From an uncultured bacterium (GTDB lineage Bacteria; Patescibacteriota; Minisyncoccia; Phycocordibacterales; CAIJYI01): a stretch of 36,251 bases of DNA. Each line of letters begins with the position of its first letter. Within the stretch, counting starts at the first letter, position 1. The stretch spans positions 1-36,251 of the forward strand of contig CAIJYI010000038.1 in assembly GCA_903824855.1 (NCBI GenBank), in the 5' to 3' direction. Shown here in pieces: positions 1 to 1,357 of the stretch. The position numbers and the translations under genes were made by a program. The notes under the pieces were generated by a model. It was not told the DNA's origin. It made no database searches and was given only the letters and a program-made list of their open reading frames with translations.

Positions 1-588
1 AATACTGTTCTTAACGACATAACAATCGACAAGGACTATTTGGAGGTTGCACTTGAGTACTTGAACGACAAACAGAAGCGTGCAGGAGACGAAGAAACCG
101 TCTGTCGGGAGGCATTGCAACTGTCTTATGACAATTGTCAGGTACGACTAAAAAATCTCAATAGGGAATTTACCTCACCGCAAAACGCAAAGCATGATAT
201 ATATACGCCAGAAGAATATCTCGAACAGAAGAAAGATATATTAAACGAAAGACGTAAAATTGAAACGGCACTTGGTGGAATCAAAGATAACTTTGATAAG
301 GTTATTGAGGCTACAGCGAGAACTTTTACCTTCTGCACATTCGCCTCCATACATTTCAACAAAGGGACTCTTCAAGACAAGCGAACGATACTGTCCACAA
401 TCGGCTCGAACCTAACTTTAATCGACAAAAAAGTCTTTATTGAACGCGTACATCCGCTTTTGCTTATTGAAAATGAACTACATTCACAGAAGGCCATTTT
501 AAGCCCGCTCGAACCTAAAAAGAAGGGCTATAACAAAGAAAGAGAGGCAACATTTGTCGCCTCTCTTCCTAGCTGGCTCCGCGGGTAG
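1..588 (+). CDS. Large serine recombinase, C-terminal coiled-coil part (5' truncated by window edge)
   Basis: Frame is open from base 1 (NTVLNDITIDKDYLEVALEYLN...). The segment FTFCTFASIHFNKGTLQDKRTILSTIGSNLTLIDKKV resembles the C-terminal region of large serine recombinases. The last codons overlap the tRNA terminator and the 3' end of the tRNA. Confidence 0.75.
   Translation, partial: NTVLNDITIDKDYLEVALEYLNDKQKRAGDEETVCREALQLSYDNCQVRLKNLNREFTSPQNAKHDIYTPEEYLEQKKDILNERRKIETALGGIKDNFDKVIEATARTFTFCTFASIHFNKGTLQDKRTILSTIGSNLTLIDKKVFIERVHPLLLIENELHSQKAILSPLEPKKKGYNKEREATFVASLPSWLRG
540..567 (-). terminator. Intrinsic terminator of the tRNA-Asn transcript
   Basis: On the minus strand: GAGAGGC-GACAAATGTT-GCCTCTC followed by TTTCTTTG, just downstream of the tRNA CCA end. 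Confidence 0.65.
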
Positions 589-908
589 GATTCGAACCTA
601 CGACCAATCGGTTACACTTGTCCTTGTGTTAACACAGGGGGTGGACTATATCATCTCCATGTTTGTCTTGCGACAAATTTAGGGGCGAGGCGCTTCGGGC
701 TGAAATGTTTTTTCAAATATTTCAGGCCTACTCCCTTGCGGGATAGTCTCTGAACCTGCCTTGAACTTTCGATCAAGGATTGGCTGCTGATTGCCCTCGG
801 TTTGAACCGGTCGGGTTTCCAGCAATTCACCTCGTTCTTCGATCCGCCTTTCGACGGAAAGCTGCAACTAACTTACAGCCGATTGCTCTACCACTGAGCT
901 ACCGCGGA
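574..908 (-). tRNA. tRNA-Asn(GUU), interrupted in the anticodon by a group I intron; exons 875-908 and 574-614 (minus strand)
   Basis: Minus strand: TCCGCGG TA GCTCAGTGGTAGAGC A ATCGG CTGT|intron|TAA CCGAT TGGTC GTAGG TTCGAAT CCTAC CCGCGGA GCCA. All stems pair, the joined anticodon is GTT, and CCA is encoded. Confidence 0.93.
615..874 (-). other. Self-splicing group I intron (~260 nt, no credible internal ORF) between anticodon positions 35 and 36 of tRNA-Asn
   Basis: P1: exon GGCUGU pairs with intron GCAGCU, with U.G at the splice site. P10: 3' exon UAAC pairs with intron GUUA. Core: UUGCUGGAAACCC...GGGCAAUCAGCAGCCAA (P4/P5), GUUCAGAGACUA and GAUAUAGUCC (P7), P8 hairpin UCCCgcaaGGGA. The intron ends in G. 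Confidence 0.93.
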
Positions 909-1021: not shown

Positions 1022-1357
1022 ATGTATATGCCAGAAACAAGAACATATGCGGATCGCGCAGAATATTTAAAAAAAGCTGTCTCGAAACGGAGAAAGAAAC
1101 TTCGAGAAATGGCTCGGGAATACAGCGGTAATAAGTGTGCTATTTGTGGCTATAATAAAAGCCCCAGGGCTTTAAGTTTTCATCATAGGGATCCAAAGAA
1201 AAAAGATTTTGGATTATCAGCGAGAGGGCTTACTCGTTCGTGGGATAAAATACGAGAGGAAATTGATAAATGTGTCCTTCTGTGTGCAAATTGTCACATG
1301 GAAGTTCATGATGGAATTTCGATACTCCCGAAAAAAATAAAAACGACTAATTTGTGA
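1022..1357 (+). CDS. Small HNH endonuclease-like protein
   Basis: CAICGYNKSPRALSFHHRDPKKKDF...CVLLCANCHMEVHDG: CxxC / HHxxP / CxxCH layout of HNH nucleases. TATACT box at 1013-1018. Confidence 0.8.
   Translation: MYMPETRTYADRAEYLKKAVSKRRKKLREMAREYSGNKCAICGYNKSPRALSFHHRDPKKKDFGLSARGLTRSWDKIREEIDKCVLLCANCHMEVHDGISILPKKIKTTNL

Follow-up and report, generated by a model that had tools for sequence, protein, structure and literature searches.

A predicted self-splicing group I intron in the only tRNA-Asn gene found in a patescibacterial genome, with a displaced and probably cognate homing endonuclease gene

The window, by which we mean the whole 36,251-nt stretch of DNA analysed here, contains a tRNA-Asn(GUU) gene (908..574, minus strand) in which a group I intron of 260 nt separates U35 from U36. 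Judging from the sequence comparisons below, it is very probable that a self-splicing intron resides in the only tRNA-Asn gene found in the genome and that a displaced, probably cognate, homing endonuclease gene lies beside it.

The split tRNA-Asn gene and its ribozyme fold

Plain tRNA finders miss the split gene, as the original prediction had warned they might: run without introns, ARAGORN calls no tRNA in the window. Once introns are permitted, the program reports a tRNA-Asn(gtt) gene whose intron measures 260 nt, and its exons, when joined, form a perfect 75-nt cloverleaf with a GUU anticodon; the split gene, the intron length and the splice after U35 that had been proposed were recovered to the nucleotide. 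The elements of the gene and of the intron core are as follows.

875..908, minus strand: 5' exon of tRNA-Asn(GUU), acceptor strand to U35 (sequence; ARAGORN with introns)
615..874, minus strand: group I intron, 260 nt, no ORF, terminal G (Rfam; covariation; folding energy)
574..614, minus strand: 3' exon of tRNA-Asn, U36 to the encoded CCA (sequence; ARAGORN)
537..570, minus strand: intrinsic terminator-like hairpin directly after the tRNA gene
860..865, minus strand: internal guide sequence GCAGCU, 3' strand of P1, pairing with exon GGCUGU at 880..875; CUGU/GCAG pairs invariant in 48/48 introns
830..834, minus strand: 5' strand of P3, CGAGG, pairing with CCUCG at 690..686; compensatory changes at 3 of 5 pairs
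819..824, minus strand: 5' strand of P4, UGCUGG, pairing with UCAGCA at 790..785; compensatory changes at 5 of 6 pairs
744..748, minus strand: 5' strand of P7, GACUA, pairing with UAGUC at 648..644; invariant, 100% of cells paired

The Rfam search that had been proposed as a check returned a single match in the window, to Intron_gpI (RF00028), which covers 884..622 over the full model length with 74.2 bits (E 3e-17; gathering score 50), and the folding-energy z-score of the intron is -3.0. The structure drawn from the window was evaluated on an alignment of 48 introns of relatives with their exon ends. In this alignment 85.7% of cells are paired, compared with 35-46% when the structure is slid, and the covariation score is 0.397 against 0.139 +/- 0.006 for shuffled and 0.06-0.12 for slid controls. 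Compensatory changes occur at 41 pairs and are found in P2, P3, P4, P5, P6a and P9, while the P1 core and P7 are invariant. The U.G pair at the 5' splice site is present in all 48 relatives and the terminal G in 82 of 82 introns. By its model match, its P3-P7 core, the U.G pair and the terminal G, the predicted insertion is a group I intron.

P1 (GGCUGU/GCAGCU), the U.G pair, P7 (GACUA/UAGUC) and the terminal G are all present as originally described. The same prediction placed the splice sites by two independent pairings, P1 and P10, and the comparison supports just the first: P10 as it had been drawn pairs in only 26-41% of cells across the 48 relatives, in an alignment where the P1 loop aligns poorly; in this form it is not conserved, and it was dropped as a general feature. 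What places the predicted splice sites is, instead, the continuity of the exons together with two invariant features, the CUGU/GCAG core of P1 and the terminal G. In the minus-strand transcript, the ribozyme would bind GTP, cut after U35 at the U.G pair in P1 and join U35 to U36, which would yield a standard tRNA-Asn.

An HNH endonuclease gene next to the intron

Beside the split gene lies a second feature, which the original prediction did not include.

1022..1357, plus strand: HNH endonuclease gene standing on its own (111 aa), divergent from and upstream of the tRNA, 113 nt from its 5' end; a member of the family that supplies the P1-loop endonuclease in related tRNA-Asn introns

When a P1-loop HNH protein was used as query against the genome, it matched the window at 1028..1345 (plus strand) with 58% identity (E 7.5e-40), and the window protein scores 26.2 bits against PF01844 (Pfam cut-off 21.4). 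Its 111 aa are free of stops and the catalytic HH and NxxH are conserved; pairwise pN/pS against relatives is 0.22-0.29, with synonymous sites near saturation.

Related introns of about 520-710 nt carry the HNH ORF in the P1 loop. There the reading frame passes through the guide sequence GCAGCU, so that the C-termini of the P1-loop proteins read GITQLP or a variant of it. No such ORF is present in the window intron, and the window protein ends in GISILP, as would be expected if the constraint imposed by the guide had been lifted. Among 144 non-redundant split loci, the HNH gene is inside the intron in 57 and outside in 8, and none was seen in 79 (flanks are short at some loci); three further outside copies (L213, L302 and L303) were recognised by eye. 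An endonuclease gene thus adjoins an ORF-less intron in the window and at 10 other loci. All 11 of these genes are upstream of the split gene by no more than 180 nt, and none is downstream; five are divergent (the window, L133, L186, L207 and L213) and six codirectional. At L294 (1504-1892, in genome G154), an HNH gene stands directly upstream of an intact, intron-less tRNA-Asn. A single site thus presents, across relatives, introns with an endonuclease inside, beside or absent, as well as an endonuclease beside an intact gene, so that gain, loss and relocation of a homing endonuclease are directly testable in one gene.

We read the intron as a member of a mobile family that is specialised for the tRNA-Asn anticodon and whose full-length form carries an HNH homing endonuclease gene in the P1 loop. 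The rows nearest to the window HNH protein in the HNH tree are the P1-loop copies L222 and L171, and L222 also holds the closest intron to that of the window outside its genus (75%), with L171 (74%) among the next. Most likely the intron arrived together with the HNH gene, as a single element, and the latter would have left P1 afterwards. We infer that splicing takes place in the cell and that the HNH protein is active as an endonuclease, its likely target being intron-less tRNA-Asn genes; repair of a cut gene would copy intron and HNH gene together in a joint homing event, and the intron would shield the host's own tRNA-Asn gene from HNH cutting. The pair looks like a parasite in an essential gene.

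A more specific scheme is collaborative homing on an essential, single-copy tRNA gene in cellular bacteria. Here the HNH family would shuttle between the P1 loop and a free upstream site and spread the intron from outside, with the intron protecting its own gene. We offer this scheme tentatively, as a serious possibility that falls short of an even chance. The precedent, as given in the available passages of PMC6083498 (citing Zeng 2009), is F-CphI and the psbA intron of cyanophage S-PM2, in which, as in the window, the endonuclease gene adjoins the intron-bearing gene and does not lie within it. Unlike that system, the window has a cellular tRNA gene and a predicted HNH protein whose closest relatives sit inside the same intron.

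It is also possible, though somewhat doubtful, that a functional intron is accompanied by a domesticated or decaying relic, an HNH gene that left the intron and has ceased to play a part in homing. Resolution in the HNH tree is weak, and the tree neither shows nor rules out a single origin of the outside arrangement; the outside copies are scattered over it with 9 changes, as repeated escapes would give. The vestige of a guide-encoded C-terminus in the free copy (GISILP compared with GITQLP) would fit a relic. So would the same-genus genomes G001 and G002, which have the intron and gave no HNH match at the cut-off used; the intron therefore persists without HNH there, and in G001 both the upstream neighbour and the split tRNA are shared with the window. 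However, a decaying gene accords poorly with the intact ORF, the retained catalytic residues and the low pairwise pN/pS, and the location of the gene beside its presumed target site in 11 loci argues against a relic as well. Our preferred reading is still a displaced, probably cognate, homing endonuclease, which may drive homing from outside as F-CphI does in a cyanophage.

The tRNA-Asn flank may also serve another type of endonuclease. GIY-YIG ORFs were observed upstream of split tRNA-Asn at L064 (1127-1486, in G001), L170, L139, L168, L174, L146, L234, L143 and L305. Lying on the same strand, they either run up to tRNA-Asn or stop no more than about 80 nt short of it, and the stop codon of the G001 ORF falls inside the tRNA.

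Sole copy and distribution of the split gene

The genome is a 1.1-Mb draft in 45 contigs with an estimated completeness of 100%, and the group I intron model matches it nowhere but at the window intron. Its 16S sequence looks patescibacterial. The original prediction had named an intact second tRNA-Asn(GUU) as one of the findings that would overturn it. The genome gives 51 tRNA matches, which include both halves of the split tRNA-Asn (checked by ARAGORN and by eye), and there is no second tRNA-Asn among them, so that the split gene is the sole copy in the assembly. Since the only tRNA-Asn found depends on the intron, the intron, and with it the tRNA-Asn gene, almost certainly splices. Within a large bacterial group that is mostly uncultured, an essential gene for which no spare was found would hence rely on a ribozyme.

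Three other tRNA matches were unusual. In G000, a tRNA-Gly(CCC)-like gene (contig 15:12178-12256) and a tRNA-Gln(CUG)-like gene (contig 23:198-277), each with an odd T arm, stand just before a normal copy of the same tRNA, and a weak match near a contig end (contig 12:21835-21900) resembles a tRNA 3' half after unrelated sequence.

The survey of tRNA-Asn in relatives that had been called for recovered the same split widely. In the order, 16 of 119 genomes, that of the window included, have tRNA-Asn split at the same site; intact tRNA-Asn occurs in 79 of the 119 and in none of the 16 split genomes (P about 2e-9). In a phylum sample of 389 genomes, 73 carry the split gene (at least 55 bits) and 221 an intact one, with 8 genomes flagged for both compared with about 41 expected (P about 4e-19). 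Matches to the R1 model below about 55 bits were left out of these counts; those inspected were intact tRNA-Asn or other split tRNAs, e.g., fMet. The 8 of 73 split genomes flagged for both weaken the notion that the two forms strictly exclude each other: G206 has a genuine second, intact tRNA-Asn beside the split one. In G390 at least one intact flag is false, one intact-pattern match being the start of the intron.

This distribution bears on whether the window gene might be a dead or poorly splicing copy, with asparagine codons read by a second tRNA-Asn missing from the assembly. With 45 contigs an intact tRNA-Asn could lie in a gap, but we consider this very improbable given the estimated completeness and the absence of a second copy from the matches, the mutual exclusion of split and intact copies across the phylum, and the intact ribozyme core and exons. 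An archaeal-type or protein-spliced tRNA intron, for which the location in the anticodon loop would speak, has next to no likelihood in view of the full-length Intron_gpI match, the group I core with covariation, the position after U35 and not 37/38, and the invariant terminal G.

A pattern scan of GTDB gave at least 120 stretches with the split site, mostly from Patescibacteria. Among the matches listed, the same split is also found in Omnitrophota, Elusimicrobia and Marinamargulisbacteria (Margulisbacteria), as well as in a few MAGs under other labels, for which misbinning is possible; the 5' exon is complete in 69 of the 80 stretches listed. Some host assignments made by ARAGORN with introns (Thr, Leu and others) were rejected where the exons read CUGU + UAA, i.e., Asn.

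tRNA-Asn had been described as an unusual host. This is true of the literature found, but not of genomes (16/119 in the order, 73/389 in the phylum), as group I introns commonly occupy this site in Patescibacteria. We found no paper in which tRNA-Asn is named among the hosts of bacterial group I introns, in a search whose coverage largely excluded subscription journals. Known bacterial tRNA introns, such as those in tRNA-Ile(CAU) of Azoarcus, Acidovorax and Burkholderia and in tRNA-Arg(CCU), resemble the window intron in being group I ribozymes of 200-300 nt in the anticodon loop, with U.G at the 5' splice site and a terminal G. In contrast to these, the window intron has tRNA-Asn(GUU) as its host and is cut after U35, and the tRNA-Asn intron occurs mostly in Patescibacteria and Omnitrophota and has a full-length form with HNH in P1. 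Some CPR tRNAs have been stated, without further detail, to carry group I introns (PMC8172020). The available passages of Tsurumaki 2024 (PMC11270868) report abundant self-splicing insertions with LAGLIDADG or GIY-YIG endonucleases in CPR rRNA genes; like the window intron, these insertions affect genes for structural RNAs in this group of bacteria, but those passages concern rRNA genes only and lack the term tRNA, whereas the window presents a tRNA gene.

Other hosts and settings were also noted. In order relatives, tRNA-fMet is interrupted by a group I intron, apparently after U33, at L070, L074 and L079, and tRNA-Phe at L059 and L077. The phage introns seen up to 2014 were in protein-coding genes (review, PMC3984707). 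Two IMG/VR viral contigs, L312 and L315, carry tRNA arrays that include a GUU-anticodon tRNA split in the same way.
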